Shown here one piece after another: positions 1,294 through 23,423 of a DNA stretch of 23,423 bases. How positions within the stretch are numbered: the first letter of the stretch is position 1; each line of letters begins with the position of its first letter. The position numbers and the translations under genes were made by a program. The notes beneath the pieces were generated by a model that was given only the letters and a program-made list of their open reading frames with translations, searched no databases and was not told where the DNA came from. This stretch comes from a virus, in IMG/VR virus record IMGVR_UViG_3300036853_000043, positions 1 to 23,423 of that record; one strand, written 5' to 3'.

Positions 1294-1502
1294 AGAACCC
1301 GAACGGCCCCGATCACGGCGCCGCGGCGGATCGCGACGACCACGACGCGCGGGTCGGGCGAGCGGCCGTCCAGGCGGTCGCGACGCGGATCCGGCGCGCC
1401 CTCGACGCACACGAACCGATCGGCGGCGAGTATGACGACGGCTGGAACGACGCGGCCGATCTGGTCCTGACGCTGCTCCCGCGGCCGGGCGCGGCGACAT
1501 GA
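1290..1502 (+). CDS. Small hypothetical protein
   Basis: This 70-aa acidic/helical protein has no family that I recognise. It overlaps both neighbours by ATGA. Its N-terminus, MKNPNGPD, nearly repeats that of the next gene (MTNPNGPD of TerL), and the DNA repeat behind this is exact over 20 bases (1295-1314 and 1504-1523). The gene therefore looks like an insertion or partial duplication between terS and terL. The C-terminal part (IGGEYDDGWNDAADLVLTLL) is probably helical. Confidence 0.6.
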   Translation: MKNPNGPDHGAAADRDDHDARVGRAAVQAVATRIRRALDAHEPIGGEYDDGWNDAADLVLTLLPRPGAAT

Positions 1503-1523
1503 CGAACCCGAACGGCCCCGATC
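1295..1523 (+). repeat. 20-bp direct repeat pair flanking a small gene
   Basis: The same 20 bases (GAACCCGAACGGCCCCGATC) occur at 1295-1314 and 1504-1523, just inside the start codons of two consecutive genes and in the same reading frame. Recombination between the copies would remove the 70-aa gene and leave the large terminase with an intact start. This suggests how the gene was gained or duplicated. Confidence 0.85.
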
Positions 1524-3040
1524 GCAAGGTTCAGATCATCAACCAGCTGACGCACACGAAAGGCCCGTTCGCGGGGCAACCGTTCAACCTCCGGCCCTGG
1601 CAAGAGAAGAAGATCATCCGGCCGCTCTTCAAGATCGACCGCCGCACGGGCAAACGGCAGTACCGGATGTGCCTATTGATGACGCCGCGCAAGAACGGGA
1701 AAACCGAACTCGTCGCCGCGCTCGCGATCGACGGGCTGCTCTTCGACGGGGAAATCGGCGCGGAAGTGTACAGCGCGGCCGCGGACAAGGACCAGGCGGC
1801 GCTCGCGTTCAACGTCGCCGCGCAGATGATCCGGAACGACCCGGAGCTGCTCGCCCGCTGCGACATTCTCGACTCGCAGAAACGGATCGTCGATCACAAG
1901 ACGGGCTCGTTCTACCGCGCGATTTCGGCGGAGGCGTACTCGAAACACGGATTCAACGCGTCGCGCGTGCTCTACGACGAGCTCCACGCGGCCCAGTCGC
2001 GCGAGCTCTGGGACGTGCTCACGTCGTCGACGGGCGCCCGCGCGCAACCGCTCATGATCGCGATCTCCACGGCCGGGTACGATCGGCATTCGATTTTGTT
2101 CGAGATGTATCAGCACGCGAAGCGGGTCGCCAAGACGCCGGCGCTCGATCCGTCGTTCCTCCCGATCATCTTCGAAGCGCCCGACGACGCCGACTGGACC
2201 GACGAGCAGGTCTGGAAGCGCGCGAATCCGGCGCTCGGGGATTTCCGCTCGCTCGAGGAGATGCGCGCCGCATGCGCCAGGGCGAAGGAGATTCCCGCCC
2301 AGGAGCAAGCGTTCCGCCGGCTGTACCTCAACCAGTGGACCGAGCAAGCCTCGCGGTGGATTGGGCTCGACGCCTGGGACCGCTGCCAGGTCCCGATCGA
2401 CCGCGCCGCGCTCCGCGGCCGAAAGTGTTACGTCGGGCTTGACTTGTCGACGACGACCGACCTGACGGCCGCGGTGGCCGTATTTCCCGACGGCGAGTAC
2501 TTCGACGTCCTGGCGGCGTTCTTCGCGCCGGCGGAGCGGATCGTCCAGCGGACGACGCGGGATCGCGTCCCGTACGTGGACTGGGCGCGCGAGGAGCTGC
2601 TGACGGCGACGCCTGGCGCGGTCGTCGACTACGAGTACCTCCGCCGGCTGCTCCTCGACTGGGATCAGGAATTCGACGTCCAGGTCGTCGCGTACGACCC
2701 CTGGAACGCGACCGACATCATCAGTCGCCTCGAAAAGACGGACGGGTTCACGTGCGCGAAAGTCCGCCAGGGGTTCGCGACGCTGTCGGCGCCGTCGAAA
2801 CTTCTCGAGAAGGCGATTCTCGGCCAGCAGCTCCGCCACGACGGACACCCGATTCTCCGCTGGAACATCGGCAATATGTCGGTAGAATCGGACGCGGCGG
2901 GCAACATCAAACCGTCGAAGGATCTCTCGACGGAACGGATCGACGGCGGGTACGCGCTGATCATGGCGATCGATGCGATGGCCCGCCACGGGCACGACGC
3001 CGCGCCCGGCTACCAGATGATCATTCTCGGGGGACCGTAA
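1499..3040 (+). CDS. terL: Terminase large subunit, HK97 type
   Basis: A 513-aa packaging motor that pumps DNA into the prohead and cuts it. The ATPase half carries a Walker A motif TPRKNGKT (about residues 62-69) and Walker B VLYDE (157-161) followed by H163. The RNase H-like nuclease half shows the acidic residues D315 (GLDLS), D400 (VAYD) and D482 (IDGGYA). Length is normal for the Terminase_1/HK97 TerL family, so it looks intact. It overlaps the previous gene by ATGA and the next by TAATG. Together with the HNH nuclease at the other window end it suggests cos-type packaging, which is an inference. Confidence 0.96.
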   Translation: MTNPNGPDRKVQIINQLTHTKGPFAGQPFNLRPWQEKKIIRPLFKIDRRTGKRQYRMCLLMTPRKNGKTELVAALAIDGLLFDGEIGAEVYSAAADKDQAALAFNVAAQMIRNDPELLARCDILDSQKRIVDHKTGSFYRAISAEAYSKHGFNASRVLYDELHAAQSRELWDVLTSSTGARAQPLMIAISTAGYDRHSILFEMYQHAKRVAKTPALDPSFLPIIFEAPDDADWTDEQVWKRANPALGDFRSLEEMRAACARAKEIPAQEQAFRRLYLNQWTEQASRWIGLDAWDRCQVPIDRAALRGRKCYVGLDLSTTTDLTAAVAVFPDGEYFDVLAAFFAPAERIVQRTTRDRVPYVDWAREELLTATPGAVVDYEYLRRLLLDWDQEFDVQVVAYDPWNATDIISRLEKTDGFTCAKVRQGFATLSAPSKLLEKAILGQQLRHDGHPILRWNIGNMSVESDAAGNIKPSKDLSTERIDGGYALIMAIDAMARHGHDAAPGYQMIILGGP

Positions 3041-15755: not shown

Positions 15756-15805
15756 TCGGCCTTCTAAGCCGAGGGTCACTGGTTCAAGCCCAGTCGGGCG
15801 CGCCA
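15756..15805 (+). other. attP: attP core: 3' half of a tRNA-Arg(TCT) gene
   Basis: The segment folds as the 3' half of a tRNA: anticodon stem TCGGC/GCCGA around loop CTTCTAA (anticodon TCT), variable loop GGGTC, T stem ACTGG/CCAGT around TTCAAGC, then acceptor strand CGGGCGC, discriminator G and encoded CCA. The expected matching 5' acceptor strand (GCGCCCG) is absent upstream and the D arm is not convincing, so it is not a complete gene. Phages that integrate into tRNA genes carry such a piece to restore the target. The integrase is about 1 kb away. Confidence 0.85.
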
Positions 15806-16750: not shown

Positions 16751-17959
16751 TCAGGATCCGGCCGCGTGTCGCACGAGGCGCAAGCGCGGCGCCGCCGGCA
16801 CGACGGGCGGGGGAATCGTGGGCATCGTCGCCTGGGCCGCGCCGGCCTTCGCAATCGCCGCCGCGACGCGCGCCGACACGGCGCCACGCGTGTACCGTTT
16901 CGTCGTTTCGAAACTCGCGTGCTGCAGGAGCTCCGAGACGGCGCCGATGTCGCCGGTCTCGCGATAGATCTCCGACGCGAACGCGTGACGGAGATCGTAC
17001 GGGTGACAATTCGGCGGGAGCGCGCTGAGCTCCTCGCGCCAGGTCTGATCCCCCGTCTCGGCGGCGACGCGCGCGGCCGCGGCCGCCGCCCGCGCGAGCC
17101 CGACGCGCCAGGTCTTACCGACACTGGACGCGGACCACGTTCGCCCCAAGAGGCCCGCGGCCGCGAAGTCGCGGAACGCGTCGACGGCCCGCGGGAGCAG
17201 CGTCACCCAGGCGCCGTGGGTCCCCTTGCCCTTGCGCCGCGGCCGGAGATAGACGCGCCCCTGGGCCAGATCCAGATCCCGCGCGCGGACGCGTCGGAGC
17301 GTCGCCGGCGCGATCCCCGTCCAGGCCATCACGCGAAGACGGATCTTCGACTGCGAGATCGGCGGGCGCGTTTCGCCCCGTCCGGCCCGGCCGCGATCCG
17401 GTAGCGCCTCGAGAATCAGGTTCACGATCCGCGCGGGAATGTCGCGCGGCTCCGCTTTCGGTGTAGCCAACCGCGCGATGCCGGTCGTCGGATTCTCGTC
17501 CCCATCGAGCGCCTGAAAGAATTTCCGCAACCGCGAGAGTCGCTGGTTGCACGTGGACTCGGCCGCGCCCGCGGTCGTCCACCCGGAGATCACCTGGATG
17601 ACCTCGAGTCGCGTGATCGTGCGGCGATCCCGATCGCCGAGCGGGCTCGTCATCCAATGGGTCAAGAGATCTTCGGTATCGATGCGATACCGTCCCTCCG
17701 GCAGCGCGGCGATAAAGTCCCGGATATCCGCCGCGAGGCTGCCGCGCCCGGGCGCGCTCGGCGCCGCCGTGGCGAGCGCGTACTTCGCGCCATGTTGCCA
17801 CGCGCGGATCTGCGCGAGATCGGTGCCGAGGGGAAACCGTTCGCGCCGAAGTGTCTGTGTCCCGTCTCGCGAATTGCCAATGCGGACCCGGGCGACGAGC
17901 GCGTCGCCATCGCGAACAATCCCAGGCCCAAGTCGAAGTATGCGATGTCGTCGTGGCAT
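16751..17959 (-). CDS. int: Tyrosine-type integrase
   Basis: A 402-aa site-specific recombinase that would join attP to the host tRNA gene. The C-terminal catalytic part shows YDLRHAFAS (R324), LQHASFETTKRYTRG (H347 and nucleophile Y356) and a basic beta-hairpin PRRKGKG (K243/K245). Two positions differ from the common pattern: the HxxR box begins with Y321, and the usual TGxR box reads MAWTGIAPATLRR with Ala217 where the first Arg is expected. The middle region (about 74-150) is the core-binding SAM-like domain. No clear ribosome site precedes the ATG. A leftward promoter within 17960-18043 is likely but not clear. Confidence 0.92.
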   Translation of the reverse strand: MPRRHRILRLGPGIVRDGDALVARVRIGNSRDGTQTLRRERFPLGTDLAQIRAWQHGAKYALATAAPSAPGRGSLAADIRDFIAALPEGRYRIDTEDLLTHWMTSPLGDRDRRTITRLEVIQVISGWTTAGAAESTCNQRLSRLRKFFQALDGDENPTTGIARLATPKAEPRDIPARIVNLILEALPDRGRAGRGETRPPISQSKIRLRVMAWTGIAPATLRRVRARDLDLAQGRVYLRPRRKGKGTHGAWVTLLPRAVDAFRDFAAAGLLGRTWSASSVGKTWRVGLARAAAAAARVAAETGDQTWREELSALPPNCHPYDLRHAFASEIYRETGDIGAVSELLQHASFETTKRYTRGAVSARVAAAIAKAGAAQATMPTIPPPVVPAAPRLRLVRHAAGS

Positions 17960-17967
17960 GTCGGCAG

Positions 17968-18000
17968 GTCTCAGGTATCAGAGCGTCTCAAGACGTCTCA
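17968..18000. repeat. GTCTCA repeats before integrase start
   Basis: GTCTCA occurs at 17968-17973, 17985-17990 and 17995-18000, the last two as CGTCTCA ten bases apart, just upstream of the integrase start on the minus strand. One helical turn spacing suggests binding by a protein on one face of the DNA, perhaps regulating integrase. Chance is possible for a 6-base motif. Confidence 0.35.
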
Positions 18001-18043
18001 CAGTATGAATACGTGTGATTCTGCCTAATTCTAGCTCAATTAA

Positions 18044-18072
18044 TTGACAACACGTCGAAGCGCAACTATATA
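18044..18072 (+). promoter_or_regulatory. Near-consensus sigma-70 type promoter, rightward
   Basis: TTGACA (18044-18049) and TATATA (18067-18072) are separated by exactly 17 bases inside a small AT-rich island in GC-rich DNA. It points toward the early genes starting at 18216, leaving a leader of about 135 bases. This is the clearest promoter in the window and probably the main early promoter. The divergent integrase operon starts within 100 bases on the other side. Confidence 0.75.
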
Positions 18073-18089
18073 AGAAGCAACGCGCCCTA

Positions 18090-18166
18090 TTGCAGCATTT
18101 GCAGCAGGGTTTACCGCTCCCCAGCGGCCGTGATCGCAGCCCGCCAGATCACCGGATGTTGTGATT
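18090..18166. promoter_or_regulatory. Leader with repeats and small hairpin
   Basis: Downstream of the promoter are a direct repeat TTGCAGCA (18090-18097 and 18099-18106), a hairpin CCGCT-CCCC-AGCGG (18114-18127) and an inverted pair ATCAC (18148-18152)/GTGAT (18161-18165). TGTGATT occurs at both 18014-18020 and 18160-18166, on either side of the promoter. These are candidates for repressor operators or leader attenuation; none matches a known operator that I recognise. Confidence 0.4.
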
Positions 18167-18215
18167 TGGGCGCCCCCCGCAACCGTTCGCTTGTCCGAAG
18201 GAAGGGAACAACCGT

Positions 18216-18554
18216 ATGCCGAAGGTGAAACGATCACCCGTTGGGAAACGATCCGCCGGCGTCCGCGAGGCCTATCTCGAGACGTTGCCCGTCATTCTCA
18301 CGCTCGACGAGCTCGCGCCGATCTATCGCTTGTCCCAGTCCACGATTCGGCGACAACTGCAGCAGGGGACGTTCGCGCCGCGCCCGTGGGACAAGTACCC
18401 GTACCGCTGGCGCCGCGATGATGTCCTCGCGGATCTGAAACGCGTCCGCCCACCGCAACCGCGGCGCCCGCATGGGTTCGCGGCCGTCGGCAAACCGCGC
18501 CCGGCGCGCGCGACGCTCCCGCCGCTCCCCGCCGCCTCGCGTCGGAGTCGTTAA
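18216..18554 (+). CDS. Helix-turn-helix DNA-binding protein, first early gene
   Basis: A 112-aa basic protein. Residues about 27-80 form an excisionase/MerR-like HTH (LTLDELAPIYRLSQSTIRRQ, then LQQGTFAPRPWDKYPYRWRR and DDVLADLKR). The C-terminal tail is Pro/Arg-rich and probably disordered. A strong ribosome site (GGAAGGGA) precedes the ATG. As the first gene after the main promoter it is a candidate regulator (Cro-, Cox- or repressor-like) or replication accessory. It is distinct from the second HTH protein beside attP. Confidence 0.75.
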   Translation: MPKVKRSPVGKRSAGVREAYLETLPVILTLDELAPIYRLSQSTIRRQLQQGTFAPRPWDKYPYRWRRDDVLADLKRVRPPQPRRPHGFAAVGKPRPARATLPPLPAASRRSR

Positions 18555-18579
18555 CCCGCACGCTCGAGGGGGCCGCGCC

Positions 18580-18963
18580 ATGAAATGGTTCCAATTGGAC
18601 GCGGACGCGCCCGACGATCCGAAGGTCCGCGCCGTCGTGCGCGAGCTCGGCCCGGCCGGATTCGGCGGGCTCGTCGGGCTCTGGTGTCACGTCGCGCGAC
18701 ACGGGCGCCGGCCAGGTCAAGGCGTCGACTCGCGCGGCGCGCCGCTACCCGTGGAAGATCTCCAGGCCGCGTCCATGCTGCCGGCGGATCAGTTCTCGAC
18801 GTTGATCGACGTCTGCACGCGGACGGGACATTTCCGGCGCGACGCGTGGGATCTGCATCGCGGGATCTGGATCCCCGCGATGGAACGCCGCGCCGATCAA
18901 TACGCCCGGCGCCAGGCGCGGCTGGGACAGCTCCCCCTCGATTGGACCGGCGGCCCTCGATGA
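18580..18963 (+). CDS. Phage replication-type N-terminal domain protein
   Basis: A 127-aa protein beginning MKWFQLDADAPDDPKVRAVV and continuing RELGPAGFGGLVGLWCHVARHG, a pattern I associate with the winged-helix-like N-terminal domain of phage and plasmid replication proteins (Lin1244/Lin1753, DUF4373-like). Its end (PAMERRADQYARRQAR) matches the point where such domains pass into variable C-terminal regions, so this is a stand-alone domain. GAGGGGG lies upstream of the ATG. A role in origin recognition fits the DnaA-box-like cluster found about 180 bases downstream. Confidence 0.7.
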   Translation: MKWFQLDADAPDDPKVRAVVRELGPAGFGGLVGLWCHVARHGRRPGQGVDSRGAPLPVEDLQAASMLPADQFSTLIDVCTRTGHFRRDAWDLHRGIWIPAMERRADQYARRQARLGQLPLDWTGGPR

Positions 18964-19139
18964 ATCCGGGCGTCCGGATGGTGCTGCGTATATTTCTGCG
19001 CGAAATGTGCGGAGTTTGTCCGCGTACAAGACAAGACAAAGATCAAGATCAAAACCCGCGCGCCGATGGCGCGCGAAGAAGAAGGCATCACGATTTTGAC
19101 CGTCAATTCGGCTCAAAACGAATAAGGTCAAGGGCTTAG
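18960..19139 (+). CDS. Possible small basic protein
   Basis: A 59-aa frame starting by ATGA overlap with the replication-type gene and ending at 19139. The product is very basic in its second half (ARRRRHHDFDRQFGSKRIRS), with a repetitive acidic/Gln stretch (RQDKDQDQN). It overlaps DNA that looks like an origin (short repeats, a hairpin and DnaA-box-like motifs), so it may not be a real gene. No ribosome site is clear. Confidence 0.35.
   Translation: MNPGVRMVLRIFLREMCGVCPRTRQDKDQDQNPRADGARRRRHHDFDRQFGSKRIRSRA
19026..19075. repeat. Short repeats and GC hairpin near putative origin
   Basis: Short direct repeats (ACAAG ACAAG, then GATCAA GATCAA) run over about 19026-19053 and are followed by a perfect 8-bp stem, CGCGCGCC (19057-19064) with GGCGCGCG (19068-19075), around GAT. 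There is no T run, so it is not a standard terminator. It lies between the replication-type gene and the DnaA-box-like cluster and may be part of the phage origin. Confidence 0.45.
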
Positions 19140-19183
19140 GCTGTGGAAAAGGCTGTGGAAAACCTGTTGATGAATTGTGGAAG
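19139..19183. other. DnaA-box-like cluster, possible phage origin
   Basis: A perfect tandem 12-mer GGCTGTGGAAAA occurs at 19139-19150 and 19151-19162. A related TTGTGGAAG follows at 19175-19183. On the other strand TGTGGAAAA reads TTTTCCACA, one base from the classical DnaA box TTATCCACA and a form used as a DnaA box in some bacteria. The cluster lies downstream of a replication-type protein gene, so host DnaA may act here. It also overlaps the upstream region of the lipoprotein gene, so a regulatory role is possible. Confidence 0.55.
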
Positions 19184-19192
19184 GTGGATCCC

Positions 19193-19621
19193 GTGCGAAA
19201 TCTGACCTGGCGAACCCTGCTCGTCGTCTCGCTGTTGGCGGTCGTGATCGCATGTCGGCCGACCACGATCGTCAACAACCTCCCGAACGACCCGAGCCCG
19301 GTCGTGACGGCGGCCGTCGTCGTGAAGCACACGATCCAGTTTCGCGTGAACGGCAACGCGACCAGCGTCCGCGTCCGGTACTCGACGCCCATCGATGGGC
19401 TCGGCCAGGTGGTGACGTCCCTGCCGTACTTCAACACGCTCGTGGTCGCCGGGGATTCCCTTTTTCTGTCGCTCGAAGGCACGCCGATTAGTTACGGGTT
19501 CGCCGTGTTCTACCCGTTCTTCTCGGTCCAGATCGTCGTCGATAACAACGTCTTTCGCGAGGCGACGACGCAGGACTTTCTCCTGGCGCCGCTTTCGATC
19601 AGCGGGCAATGGCGGCAATAG
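19193..19621 (+). CDS. Phage-encoded lipoprotein
   Basis: A 142-aa exported protein with a type II signal peptide: basic MRNLTWRT, hydrophobic LLVVSLLAVVIA, then C21 in the lipobox VIAC. GTG 19193 is chosen because AAGGTGG lies 6 bases upstream and gives a normal signal length; TTG 19175 would add six residues. The mature part is beta-rich (TIQFRVNGNATSVRVRYSTP, YGFAVFYPFFSVQIVVDNNV), possibly a small beta-sandwich. Lipoproteins in phage early regions often act in superinfection exclusion. That role is inferred from this association alone. Confidence 0.8.
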   Translation: MRNLTWRTLLVVSLLAVVIACRPTTIVNNLPNDPSPVVTAAVVVKHTIQFRVNGNATSVRVRYSTPIDGLGQVVTSLPYFNTLVVAGDSLFLSLEGTPISYGFAVFYPFFSVQIVVDNNVFREATTQDFLLAPLSISGQWRQ

Positions 19622-19858
19622 ATGGCGACGGTCCTCCCGCACCCGATCGCGGAACTCCTGCTCGAGGATCTGCGTCGCGCGGCGCTCTATCTCGACGAGC
19701 TCGGCGCCGGCCCGGCCCGCGACGCGGCGACGGCCCGCAACCATGCGACGCGCCTCTGGGCGGCGTCCCAAGCGGTCGAGCGCCTGGTCGTCGCCGTCGA
19801 GGGGATCGTCGTCCAGGAACGCGCGCGACGGGCGAACGAGGGGACGTGCGGATCATGA
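19622..19858 (+). CDS. Small helical hypothetical protein
   Basis: A 78-aa, Ala/Leu/Arg-rich protein predicted to be mostly helical (ELLLEDLRRAALYLDELG, ASQAVERLVVAVEGIVVQER). Its ATG directly follows the lipoprotein stop and its own stop overlaps the next ATG (ATGA). Function is unknown; it belongs to the early operon. Confidence 0.6.
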   Translation: MATVLPHPIAELLLEDLRRAALYLDELGAGPARDAATARNHATRLWAASQAVERLVVAVEGIVVQERARRANEGTCGS

Positions 19859-20223
19859 CGGCGACGTGTTACCGCGTTCAGGACGCCGACGGGCGCGGGC
19901 CGTGGCGGCCCGGATTCTCGCGGACGTGGATCGATGAGTCGGCGCCGGTTGGCCGGCTGAGGGAAACGATCTTCGATCTCGTACACCCACATCTCCTTCG
20001 ACAATTCGCGGCGACATACCACGTCGGATCGGCGTGTCGGACGCGCGATGCGCTCTGGCAGTGGTTCACGCCGATCGAACGCGCCCGACTTGAGGCCCGC
20101 GGCTACCATGTCGTCCGCCTGGTCGGCGACGTCGTCATCGCCGAAAGCGACTGGCAGATGGTGATCGGTCGGCCGCGCCCGTTCTCGGAAGGGGCAACAC
20201 GATTGCGGTGGGATCGGCGATGA
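19855..20223 (+). CDS. Conserved phage protein of unknown function
   Basis: A 122-aa protein whose pattern is widespread in phages: CYRVQDADGRGPWRPGFSRT near the start, HVGSACRTRDALWQWFTPIE in the middle and ARGYHVVRLVGDVVIAESDW toward the end, then RPRPFSEGA. The regular length and both ATGA overlaps mark it as an intact gene. No enzymatic motif is evident to me. Confidence 0.8.
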   Translation: MTATCYRVQDADGRGPWRPGFSRTWIDESAPVGRLRETIFDLVHPHLLRQFAATYHVGSACRTRDALWQWFTPIERARLEARGYHVVRLVGDVVIAESDWQMVIGRPRPFSEGATRLRWDRR

Positions 20224-20630
20224 ATGGCGCCGACCGCGCCGCCTGGACTCGGCAGCTCGGCGGCGAGCTCGACGCTCCGCCGCTCCGCGCGAACAAGTAC
20301 CACGCGCAGATGTGCACCGTCGACGGGATCCGCTTCGACTCGACGAAAGAAGCGCGCCGGTACGAAGAGCTCAAAGTCCTGGCGGCCGCCGGCGAGATCC
20401 TCGCGCTCGAGCGGCAACCGGAGTTTCCGATCATCGTCCTCGAGCTGTGGCGCGACGACGGCCAGCAGGTGCTTTGCGGGCGCTATCGCGCCGACTTCCG
20501 GTACGTCGATGCACAGAGCGGCGAAGTCGTGATCGAGGATACGAAGAGCGGGCCGACCAAGACGACCGCGTACCGCTTGCGTAAGCGCCTCGCCGAAGCG
20601 ATTCACGGCGTGACTATTCGCGAAGTGTGA
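20220..20630 (+). CDS. DUF1064 phage nuclease
   Basis: A 136-aa protein of the DUF1064 family, related to PD-(D/E)XK nucleases found in phage replication and recombination regions. The family core is clear: NKYHAQ, TVDGIRFDSTKEARRYEELK, LERQPEF, then YRADFRYVD and VVIEDTKSG. Candidate active residues are E44, D92, D107 and K109. The ATG overlaps the previous stop (ATGA) and is preferred over GTG 20208. A role as an endonuclease or junction-cleaving enzyme is expected from the family and is not proved here. Confidence 0.87.
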   Translation: MNGADRAAWTRQLGGELDAPPLRANKYHAQMCTVDGIRFDSTKEARRYEELKVLAAAGEILALERQPEFPIIVLELWRDDGQQVLCGRYRADFRYVDAQSGEVVIEDTKSGPTKTTAYRLRKRLAEAIHGVTIREV

Positions 20631-20646
20631 ACGGATGGGGGCAGCG

Positions 20647-20988
20647 ATGGAGATCAATCCGGGGCGCCTGGCGGAGCTCGAGGAGTGGGCCGCGGTGCAC
20701 GAGCGAAACGCCGCCCGCCTCACCTGGTCCGATGACGAGCGCGCGGCGCTCGATGACATCCGTCGGGCCTGTCGGTTTCAGAGCGACGCGGACGCGATCC
20801 GCGGCGCGCTCTGGTGGTACGCGCGCTTCCTCGAGCTCGACGTCCCGTCTGATGTGTTCGCGCTCGCCCTGCCGGCCGCGACGCGGGCCCATGTTCGCAG
20901 CGCGGTCGCGGCGCCGGCCGCCAGGTCGGAGGCGGCGGACGACCAGAGCGATCTCGGTTGTGAAGAACACGAAGGCTTTCTCGGTTGA
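20647..20988 (+). CDS. Hypothetical protein, possible ribbon-helix-helix relation
   Basis: A 113-aa protein, acidic and helical. The segment RFQSDADAIRGALWWYARFL resembles the helix-turn-helix end of ribbon-helix-helix proteins, but the N-terminal strand is not obvious. ATG 20647 has GGGGG just upstream; ATG 20635 is an alternative that adds four residues. It ends 14 bases before the PEP-CTERM gene. Confidence 0.6.
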   Translation: MEINPGRLAELEEWAAVHERNAARLTWSDDERAALDDIRRACRFQSDADAIRGALWWYARFLELDVPSDVFALALPAATRAHVRSAVAAPAARSEAADDQSDLGCEEHEGFLG

Positions 20989-21002
20989 AGGAGACTCCCC
21001 GC

Positions 21003-21755
21003 ATGAAACACGTTCTATTGGCTGTCCTGTCTCTCGCCCTCGCGTCGACCGCGGACGCGTCGGCCCTGCTGAACTTCACCTCTGGCGCGGCCGCGGCGCT
21101 CTGCGATACCCGCGTCGCCGTTTCGGCCGTCAACTGCGGCGCGGGGTTCACGGTCGTCGGCGACACGATCGCGTACGTGGGCGCGATCGGGACCTGGCAG
21201 ATCGACACGCTCGCGATCACAACGTCCAACACGCCAGGCGGGCCGACGCTCGGCAAGATCAACCTCGGCCTGGTCGACGTGCGTCACCTGAGCGGGCCCG
21301 ATGATCTGACGGTGGACTTCGGCCACGACGGGTTCACCGCGCCCGTCGGCCAGGGCCCGCTGACGGCCACGGGCGCCGACAGTGCCGACACGGTCGTCGC
21401 GGGCGATGCGTCGTACCTGACCGGGTACGCCCGCAATGCGAACGACATGGCGATCGCCGCCCCGACGTCGGCCACGGCCCTCGACGTGATCCTGCACGTG
21501 CCCGGGTGCTTCCCGGCCGCCGGCGTGACGCAGTCGTGCGCGATGAACTCGCCGGACGTGCCGTTCACGGTCGTCGGCCCCTTCTACAGCCTGAGCGCCC
21601 GCGCGGAGATTCATCAACACACGAGCGCGCTCGACCAGGCGTCGTACTTGGCGAAGGCGGCCGCGAACGTGCCCGTCGTGCCGGAACCGGCGACGCTCAT
21701 CTTGATCGGAACGGGACTGCTCGCGCTCGCGGCGCGCCGGCGGCGGGTGCGCTGA
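21003..21755 (+). CDS. Secreted PEP-CTERM protein (exosortase substrate)
   Basis: A 250-aa exported protein. It has an N-terminal signal peptide (MKHVLLAVLSLALASTADA, cleavage near residue 19) and a complete C-terminal sorting tail: VPEPAT (226-231), hydrophobic LILIGTGLLALAA, then RRRR (245-248). Such tails are recognised by exosortase in Gram-negative bacteria that make exopolysaccharide. Exosortase is not encoded in the window, so the host must supply it. The mature part is beta-rich with cysteines C34, C45, C169 and C179 that may pair. AAGGAG at 20989-20994 gives a strong ribosome site. It sits inside the early operon between phage genes, so it is a phage gene and not flanking host DNA. 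It could change the lysogen's surface or biofilm. Confidence 0.9.
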   Translation: MKHVLLAVLSLALASTADASALLNFTSGAAAALCDTRVAVSAVNCGAGFTVVGDTIAYVGAIGTWQIDTLAITTSNTPGGPTLGKINLGLVDVRHLSGPDDLTVDFGHDGFTAPVGQGPLTATGADSADTVVAGDASYLTGYARNANDMAIAAPTSATALDVILHVPGCFPAAGVTQSCAMNSPDVPFTVVGPFYSLSARAEIHQHTSALDQASYLAKAAANVPVVPEPATLILIGTGLLALAARRRRVR

Positions 21756-22234
21756 TGGCCTTCGCGGAAAACACGAGCGTATCGGTCGAGAAATCGCGGG
21801 CCGAAATTGAACGGCTCTTGATGCGCCATCGGTGCACGAAATTCATGTGCGGCACCGACAACGAGCAACACCGCGCGACGGTGCAATTTCAAGCGAACAA
21901 CCGGATCATCCGCTTCGAAATCGCACTGCCCAATCCGGCCGATCCAGCCTACCGAAAGATCAAGAACAGCTATCTCCAGCGGTCGAGCGCGGGCATCGAG
22001 AAGGTGGTCGATCAAGCCAGCCGAACCCGCTGGCGCGCGCTGCTCCTGGTGATCAAAGCGAAGCTCGAATCGATCGAGAGTGGGATCGCGACGTTCGAAG
22101 ATGAATTCCTCGCCCACATCGTGCTACCGAACCAGCAAACCGTCGCCGAGTACATCGGCCCGGCAGTCGAGCGGATGTACAAAACCGGCGTGATGCCGCC
22201 GGCCGACCGTCAACTGACGAGCGGGGACGTATGA
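21755..22234 (+). CDS. Conserved phage protein of unknown function
   Basis: A 159-aa protein with the characteristic start ENTSVSVEKSRAEIERLLMR and core HRATVQFQANNRIIRFEIAL, followed by RTRWRALLLVIKAKLESIES and FLAHIVLPNQQTVAEYI. I recognise it as a widespread phage and mobile-element protein that is commonly found with replication and DNA-repair genes; its function is not known to me. It overlaps the PEP-CTERM stop by one base (TGATG) and the next gene by ATGA. Confidence 0.85.
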   Translation: MAFAENTSVSVEKSRAEIERLLMRHRCTKFMCGTDNEQHRATVQFQANNRIIRFEIALPNPADPAYRKIKNSYLQRSSAGIEKVVDQASRTRWRALLLVIKAKLESIESGIATFEDEFLAHIVLPNQQTVAEYIGPAVERMYKTGVMPPADRQLTSGDV

Positions 22235-22452
22235 CGGGCCCGATCGCGCGCGTCACGTGTCCAGGTTGCGGCGGCCTGTTCGCGCGGCGCCTGGACGGCC
22301 GCACGCCGTACCGGCATGTCTGCTGCACCGATCCGACCTGGCGGCCGGCGCCGCGCGCGCGCTGTCGCTGCGGCGCGTATCTGACTCGGAGCGTCCTCGA
22401 CGCGGTGTATTGCCGGAAGTGTGATCGCCGGCGAACCTTGACGAAGCCATGA
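22231..22452 (+). CDS. Small cysteine-rich zinc-finger protein
   Basis: A 73-aa protein with CPGC, then CC, CRC and CRKC, which would allow two zinc-binding knuckles. Highly basic, so nucleic-acid binding is plausible. It is fully embedded in the operon by ATGA overlaps at both ends. It is one of several small zinc-type proteins in this genome. Confidence 0.75.
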   Translation: MTGPIARVTCPGCGGLFARRLDGRTPYRHVCCTDPTWRPAPRARCRCGAYLTRSVLDAVYCRKCDRRRTLTKP

Positions 22453-22676
22453 ATTCTGACGAGCGATTCATCGTCGCCGAAGTGTCCAAGAATTGGAAAG
22501 ACGGGCAAGAACTGACCCCTGGCTCGGGTCTGCTCGCGCAGCAATTCGAGCGCGTGATCGCTGTGAACGAGGCTCGCGGCTACCGGCTCGTCGAGTGGCG
22601 CCTTCATCGGCTGATGACGGGCCCGAATGAAATGAACGAAACGATCATCGCCCTGTTCGAACGCGCGGTGGTCTAG
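22449..22676 (+). CDS. Small conserved phage protein
   Basis: A 75-aa protein with SGLLAQQFERVIAVNEARGY, then LVEWRLHRLM and MNETIIALFER, a pattern seen in small phage proteins near the right end of the early region. It looks like a compact alpha/beta fold. Function is unknown. ATGA overlap with the zinc-finger gene; followed by a 33-base gap. Confidence 0.75.
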   Translation: MNSDERFIVAEVSKNWKDGQELTPGSGLLAQQFERVIAVNEARGYRLVEWRLHRLMTGPNEMNETIIALFERAVV

Positions 22677-22709
22677 GCGCAGAATCACACACCCAAAAGG
22701 GAGAGACAC

Positions 22710-22985
22710 ATGGACCGACCGAAGAACGAGATCGACGTACAAGAAACGCTCGACAAGTACCTCGAGGAGAACCCCGTCGTTCAGCAGTACGTGATGAAGA
22801 TCTACTACGTGCCCTCCGGCGCTGAGATTCCGCCCGCCGCGACGCATATGGTTCGGCTCACGGCCGTCGACGAGCCCACGCTCGAGCTCCGCCTGGGCGT
22901 CGTCGCCACGCCGAACACGACGGCGATTGCGAACGCCCTCCTCGGACTCATCGGCGCCGCGGCGCCCGATCCGAAGGAGCAATGA
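22710..22985 (+). CDS. Hypothetical protein
   Basis: A 91-aa acidic protein with a helical N-terminus (VQETLDKYLEENPVVQQYVM) and a beta-rich middle (THMVRLTAVDEPTLELRLGV). A strong ribosome site (GGGAGAG) precedes its ATG, unusual here where most genes are coupled by overlap, so it may be expressed more highly. It overlaps the HNH gene by ATGA. No family recognised. Confidence 0.7.
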   Translation: MDRPKNEIDVQETLDKYLEENPVVQQYVMKIYYVPSGAEIPPAATHMVRLTAVDEPTLELRLGVVATPNTTAIANALLGLIGAAAPDPKEQ

Positions 22986-23335
22986 AGTTCTGCGACGAAC
23001 CGGGCTGCGGCGCGCTGGTGGCTCGCGGCCGCTGCGCGACGCACGCCCGGGTCGTCGACCGTGCCCGCGGGTCGCGCCAGGCGCGCGGCTACGGGAACCG
23101 CTGGGCCCGACGTGCCCAATTGTTTCGCGCCCAGTACCCGCTCTGCGGGAACCGCCCACGCGGCCAGGTGCCCGTGATGTCCCAGTGCTTCGACGAGCAG
23201 CGGGTCACGCTCGGCGCCCATGTTGATCACGTCGTCCCGCATCGAGGGGACGAGGCGCTGTTCTGGGATGAACTCGGAAACTGGCAAACGCTCTGTGCCG
23301 CCTGTCACACGCGGAAGTCCGGCGCGGGATTGTGA
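22982..23335 (+). CDS. HNH endonuclease, HK97 gp74-like
   Basis: A 117-aa nuclease. The N-terminus holds likely zinc ligands (C4, C9, C18, H21) before RGYGNRWARRAQLFRAQYPL, a signature of the HK97 gp74-type family. The catalytic ββα-metal motif is AHVDHVVPH (H80, D82, H83) followed by N100 and CAACH (C105, C108, H109). In HK97-type phages this enzyme works with terminase to cut cos and start packaging. It lies at the far right of the window and terminase at the far left, which supports the two ends being joined in the phage. Confidence 0.9.
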   Translation: MKFCDEPGCGALVARGRCATHARVVDRARGSRQARGYGNRWARRAQLFRAQYPLCGNRPRGQVPVMSQCFDEQRVTLGAHVDHVVPHRGDEALFWDELGNWQTLCAACHTRKSGAGL

Positions 23336-23423
23336 CGCCGTCGCGCCGCGTGCGCACGGTCGTCGTCGGCGCGCGCCGGCGGGGGGGGGGCGTGTCCACG
23401 CGCCAGGGGGACGCCCCGGGGAC
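23336..23423. other. Candidate cos-side region with G10 tract
   Basis: About 88 bases after the HNH gene contain a run of ten G (23381-23390), dense palindromic GC such as GCGCGCGCC, and two copies of GGGGAC (23407-23412 and 23418-23423). No complete gene is seen. In HK97-type genomes the cohesive-end site lies here, between HNH and small terminase. The exact cut site cannot be placed from one sequence. Confidence 0.4.

Follow-up and report, generated by a model that had tools for sequence, protein, structure and literature searches.

The gene and its surroundings

The window, by which we mean the whole stretch of DNA analyzed here, corresponds to a viral record in IMG/VR with a length of 23,423 bases, and profile searches identify among its genes those for terminase, portal, a fused protease-capsid protein, tape measure, integrase, and HNH. 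The record probably represents an almost complete genome that is circularly permuted, since in contig G001 the sequence matching the window's end runs on into that matching its start. Close to the window's end, tightly packed within a resolvase/HNH operon, lies a gene for a protein with the export and sorting signals of a PEP-CTERM protein. The features that bear on its interpretation are as follows.

1499..3040, + strand: terminase large subunit (phrog_9), the query for finding relatives
15756..15805, + strand: probable attP, the 3' part of a tRNA-Arg(TCT) gene including CCA
16751..17959, - strand: tyrosine integrase (PF00589, phrog_1)
19175..19621, + strand: conserved lipobox protein (lipobox in most relatives), a second exported product in the PEP-CTERM gene region
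20208..20630, + strand: DUF1064/Holliday-junction-resolvase-like gene (PF06356, phrog_190), upstream of the PEP-CTERM gene in the same operon
20635..20988, + strand: small phage gene directly upstream of the PEP-CTERM gene; its ortholog is kept in G007, which is without the PEP-CTERM gene
20988..20994, + strand: ribosome-binding site AAGGAGA, from the sequence
21003..21755, + strand: PEP-CTERM (exosortase-substrate-like) gene, 250 aa (translation, PF07589, TIGR02595, four orthologs in phage contigs)
21003..21059, + strand: signal peptide, residues 1 to 19, with AxA site A17-D18-A19, read from the sequence; a hydrophobic start is present in 4/4 orthologs too
21678..21752, + strand: C-terminal sorting tail (VPEP motif, hydrophobic helix, RRRR), residues 226 to 250; PF07589 matches residues 226 to 247
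21755..22234, + strand: phage gene overlapping the PEP-CTERM stop by one base (phrog_17260)
22231..22452, + strand: conserved phage gene marking the far side of the cassette slot
22982..23335, + strand: HNH endonuclease gene at the operon end (PF01844, phrog_144)

The product ends in VPEPAT, a hydrophobic stretch, and RRRR, and its last 25 residues pass the curated cutoffs of both Pfam PF07589 (31.4 bits, E=1.8e-7; cutoff, 20.7) and NCBIfam TIGR02595 (26.3 bits; cutoff, 16). In this tail, VPEPATLILIGTGLLALAARRRRVR, a hydrophobic helix and then basic residues follow the PEP. By eye, the N terminus, MKHVLLAVLSLALASTADA followed by SA, shows a basic n-region that leads into a hydrophobic core and then an AxA site, and a Sec-type signal peptide can be recognized in the same way in all five orthologs, the window protein included. 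A PEP motif within the model, a helix with a basic end, and a signal peptide, the marks of a PEP-CTERM protein, are combined here in one product. The ribosome-binding site ends 8 bases before the ATG, which lies 14 bases from the stop of the upstream gene. The first-pass annotation of this DNA had claimed both export signals, a strong ribosome site with a one-base overlap downstream, and a phage without exosortase. All three claims are borne out, by the profile scores and the reading by eye, by AAGGAGA and the TGATG in which stop and next start overlap, and by a PF09721 profile search of the window record that found no exosortase. We are highly confident that the gene encodes a phage-borne protein of the exosortase-substrate type.

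Outside the tail, the protein matches no Pfam, NCBIfam, or PHROG family above cutoff, and a sequence search of the PDB gave no match. The AF2 model is poor, with the helix at 229 to 249 as its best-scored part, and a fold search was dropped for this reason. The body contains four cysteines that are invariant in 5/5 orthologs. Membership in the flocculation-associated PepA family (NF033554) or in other named PEP-CTERM subfamilies was rejected, as scores fell under the cutoffs; the PepA match, weak and extending over most of the protein, reaches 29.4 bits, far under the family cutoff of 80 bits. Like the proteins of the PEP-CTERM/exosortase (EpsH) sorting system (Haft et al. 2006, PMC1569441), the window protein has a signal peptide, a C-terminal PEP, a hydrophobic helix, and a basic end, together with a body without known homologs, which is typical of the family. 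Unlike them, it is encoded by a phage, as a single gene with no exosortase or exopolysaccharide (EPS) genes beside it. Phages are not mentioned in PMC1569441.

The lipobox protein of the 19175-19621 region (lipobox IAC or AGC) recurs in nearly all relatives, and L166 has it too (47%), next to a PEP-CTERM gene of an unrelated kind. This product may likewise be directed to the envelope, acting for example in superinfection exclusion. Superinfection-exclusion envelope proteins of phages include lipoproteins such as T5 Llp and Ltp of phage TP-J34.

Orthologs in phage contigs and an accessory slot

Scans of IMG/VR revealed four other contigs, of 22.7 to 24.0 kb, that carry orthologs among phage genes, with identities to the window protein of 93, 82, 68, and 71%. 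The PEP-CTERM tail is above the Pfam cutoff in all four, and across the five orthologs the PEP is invariant while the flanking helix varies freely. In three of the four contigs, the ortholog is situated between the DUF1064 gene on its 5' side and the phage gene at 22231 on its 3' side; in L005 the neighbors differ. The gene at 21755-22234 is also found 3' of the PEP-CTERM gene in L004 and is absent in L002 and L003. Contig G001 stops just 3' of the PEP-CTERM gene, and the gene order resumes at its opposite end, as in a circularly permuted genome. The tail modules of L004 and L005 are of another type, with 26% identity over part of the large tail gene, and the PEP-CTERM gene is therefore common to more than one backbone. 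Nei-Gojobori dN/dS values are 0.23 to 0.34 for the whole gene and 0.11 to 0.27 for the body, which, judged by these ratios, is under purifying selection.

PEP-CTERM proteins are classically host genes (PMC1569441), as would be expected had an assembly chimera formed or a host gene been caught at a contig join. Against this, four other contigs of similar length hold the ortholog among phage genes, an exact short-peptide scan of bacterial genome contigs found no relative of the window protein, and 396 Acidobacteriota genomes contained no homolog. We rejected a chimeric or host origin as effectively refuted, with only the slightest chance left to it. The claim of the first-pass annotation that this is a phage gene with phage genes on both sides stands, given the four contigs, the selection on the body, and the phage operon.

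Comparison of contigs indicates that the PEP-CTERM gene is an accessory cassette in a variable slot, because close relatives have other small genes there. In G007, G008, and G009, the flanking genes are kept, the PEP-CTERM gene is absent, and other small genes fill the slot; that of G007 holds a gene for a 50-residue membrane protein with the same manner of ending against the next gene. A joint search of 50 terminase relatives and the four ortholog contigs, many of these records being fragments, found a PEP-CTERM tail in 5/50 contigs, namely, the four with orthologs and one more. In this fifth contig (G032, locus L063), the tail belongs to the product of a gene with an unrelated body, which separates portal from the following gene of the head region.

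With phage genes on both sides, and missing from close relatives in which the flanking genes persist, the window's PEP-CTERM gene resembles a moron. A promoter or terminator of its own and expression in the lysogen, which characterize the classical moron, are not supported for it: a scan of 18000-23423 covering sigma-70-like sites only found no promoter, and the operon is tightly packed, so we do not file it as such. With morons and superinfection-exclusion envelope proteins, such as P22 SieA (PMC10883804), it has in common a nonessential-looking cassette in a variable slot and an envelope-directed product; it differs in bearing a putative host-exosortase tag, rather than being a lipobox or integral membrane protein, and in having no promoter of its own that we could find.

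The window is a mosaic. Its sequence agrees with L002 as far as about base 21,700 (92 to 100% over the body); beyond this point, for the tail and the gene after it, the agreement is with L004 (83 to 100%). The recombination breakpoint falls inside the tail-coding region, at 21690-21720, and the PEP is kept.

PEP-CTERM genes across uncultured phages

At least 120 IMG/VR stretches match a degenerate DNA pattern for VPEP-type tails, versus one stretch for a VPKP control pattern, where the frame is not a C-terminal tail; chance is thereby excluded. Among the matches listed, all 120 of 120 stretches have an ORF with a PEP-CTERM-like end, and a crude test detected a signal peptide in most of the 80 listed stretches examined. 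The bodies fall into several clusters, with many singletons besides. One broad profile detected terminase in 22 of 50 PEP-CTERM-bearing virus contigs tested, the viral nature of the other contigs of those 50 being as given by IMG/VR alone, and some contigs without a terminase match could be host ends of proviruses. An exosortase was detected neither in the window and its phage relatives with the gene nor in these 50 contigs. The first-pass annotation had described PEP-CTERM proteins as known mainly as host chromosomal genes, a view that needs amending now that they prove common in uncultured virus contigs; the search of phage databases for such tails that it proposed, with mapping of their context, yielded these stretches, several with the gene beside terminase or portal.

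PEP-CTERM genes with different bodies directly adjoin terminase or portal in several distinct phages, namely, in L143, L152, L169, L126, L176/L063, and L217, lying between the two in the first three and beside portal in L126 and L176. Where a locus has a match to a hallmark or methyltransferase gene, the PEP-CTERM gene is on the same strand (25/25 loci). One family is located 3' of a phage-type DNA methyltransferase, again on the same strand (L131, L141, L146, L149, L197, L227, and L228), and two to three PEP-CTERM ORFs per viral stretch are seen in L142, L178, L192, L205, L206, L221, and L228.

Only the tail is common to these otherwise unrelated phage proteins. Neither blastp nor hhalign supported kinship of the window protein's body with other phage PEP-CTERM families, and matches of the L063-type family in Pseudomonadota were to the tail only. 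A shared tail is what one would expect of an exosortase decoy, a protein whose tail occupies the host enzyme and cuts the display of host PEP-CTERM proteins, some of them maybe receptors or EPS factors. The purifying selection on the body and its conserved cysteines would be surprising in a mere carrier of a tail, however, and we regard a decoy as quite improbable.

Among isolated phages, four full-length PEP-CTERM queries against 50,697 phage records found no PEP-CTERM relative; weak matches in Mycobacterium phages were rejected, as they lie in DNA methylase genes. A tail-only tblastn search of isolated phages found nothing, a search in which the tail may have been masked as low complexity. 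In titles and abstracts, the pairing of PEP-CTERM or exosortase with phage or virus led to no paper on the subject beyond a mention in passing of 13 TIGR03118 proteins with a putative exosortase-interaction end in hot-spring viruses (PMC11003980). Those proteins are similar in having an exosortase-type end in virus contigs; they differ in forming a separate family, reported only as horizontally acquired genes with no function assigned, without context or a sorting argument.

For the L063-type body, modeling gave a beta-sandwich with high confidence (pLDDT, 87), which weakly resembles carbohydrate-binding modules (query-normalized TM-scores, 0.2 to 0.35) and tailspike domains. This predicted fold fits contact with polysaccharide, in a different protein that is no evidence on the window protein.

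Many phage-borne PEP-CTERM genes of uncultured phages appear to go unrecognized. On balance, we favor the view that substrates of exosortase form a widespread and overlooked class among phage accessory genes, in which many exosortase-less lineages have, independently of one another, PEP-CTERM proteins whose bodies are unrelated and whose genes often neighbor terminase or portal, and place these proteins on the infected cell surface by means of the host enzyme.

Host and exosortase

The phage probably relies on an exosortase of its host. The best terminase match in bacterial genomes (53%) is in an Acidobacteriota metagenome-assembled genome that has an exosortase. The attP is tRNA-Arg(TCT)-like in the window and L003 and tRNA-Val(CAC)-like in sister phages (L002, L242, L243, and L244, near integrase), so related integrases use different tRNA genes. 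The tRNA-Arg site was compared with 396 Acidobacteriota genomes and gave a best match of 88% over 50 nucleotides and no exact attB. The sister tRNA-Val site reaches 98% over 50 nucleotides in Acidobacteriota, where 24 of 347 genomes have matches at E<=1e-13, and 92% at best in Pseudomonadota, with none of 170 genomes at that threshold. In the class of the best sister-attP match, 25 of 100 genomes have exosortase; none was found in the best-matching genome itself. The sister sites hint at an Acidobacteriota host, which is only a lead because just these two phyla could be compared.

With a host exosortase no more than probable, the protein might instead work in the envelope without one, perhaps anchored in the inner membrane and acting from the periplasm in lysis or in entry exclusion. 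Among the window genes scanned, none was recognized as encoding an endolysin, holin, or spanin, and the short membrane protein in the same slot of G007 would be in keeping with such a role. Nevertheless, the invariance of the PEP in five orthologs whose flanking helix varies suggests that the PEP itself is recognized, and the tail has been kept through recombination within it. We consider an exosortase-free role improbable and continue with host sorting as the preferred reading.

Function of the phage-borne protein

The best explanation as a whole, to which we give an even chance, is that of a temperate soil siphophage with an accessory exosortase substrate that is sorted by the host and then covers or modifies the infected cell's envelope. 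From the gene, its position, and its family, we infer exosortase processing, surface location, timing, and function of the window protein. The protein would be made during infection from the resolvase/HNH operon, as suggested by gene packing, the absence of a recognizable promoter, and the packaging-module position of its counterparts. Its sequence predicts export by Sec and retention in the inner membrane by the C-terminal helix. A host exosortase, as family knowledge leads one to expect (PMC1569441), would recognize the PEP and release the protein toward the outer surface or the exopolysaccharide. There, the body may coat or alter the envelope or polysaccharide of the infected cell, with less adsorption by other phages or less re-adsorption of progeny as a possible consequence. 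A role in surface exclusion or in EPS is our first choice for the window protein, tentatively held.

The timing of expression bears on whether the infected cell or the lysogen is affected. The first-pass annotation suggested a possible effect on the lysogen's surface, on other phages, or on biofilm, and lysogenic conversion, in which the prophage expresses the protein and alters the aggregation, biofilm, or surface of a lysogen that benefits, has points in its favor: integrase and a tRNA attP make lysogeny likely, and floc formation in Zoogloea is reported to require PEP-CTERM proteins (PMC9012009). The proposal is weakened by the packing of the gene in the resolvase/HNH operon, with no promoter of its own found, and by counterparts in other phages between terminase and portal. 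Expression in lytic growth fits this position of the counterparts, which are unrelated to the window protein, and genomic position points mildly to a role in the lytic cycle. Lysogenic conversion thus seems rather unlikely to us, and we prefer an effect on the surface of the infected cell.

If this interpretation is true, phages draw on a bacterial pathway for surface sorting without encoding it themselves, and exosortase and exopolysaccharide biology would be linked to phage-host conflict in uncultured soil bacteria. The finding also bears on the abundance of orphan PEP-CTERM proteins in bacteria and the reasons for it, and the function of the window protein is testable in culturable exosortase-positive hosts.
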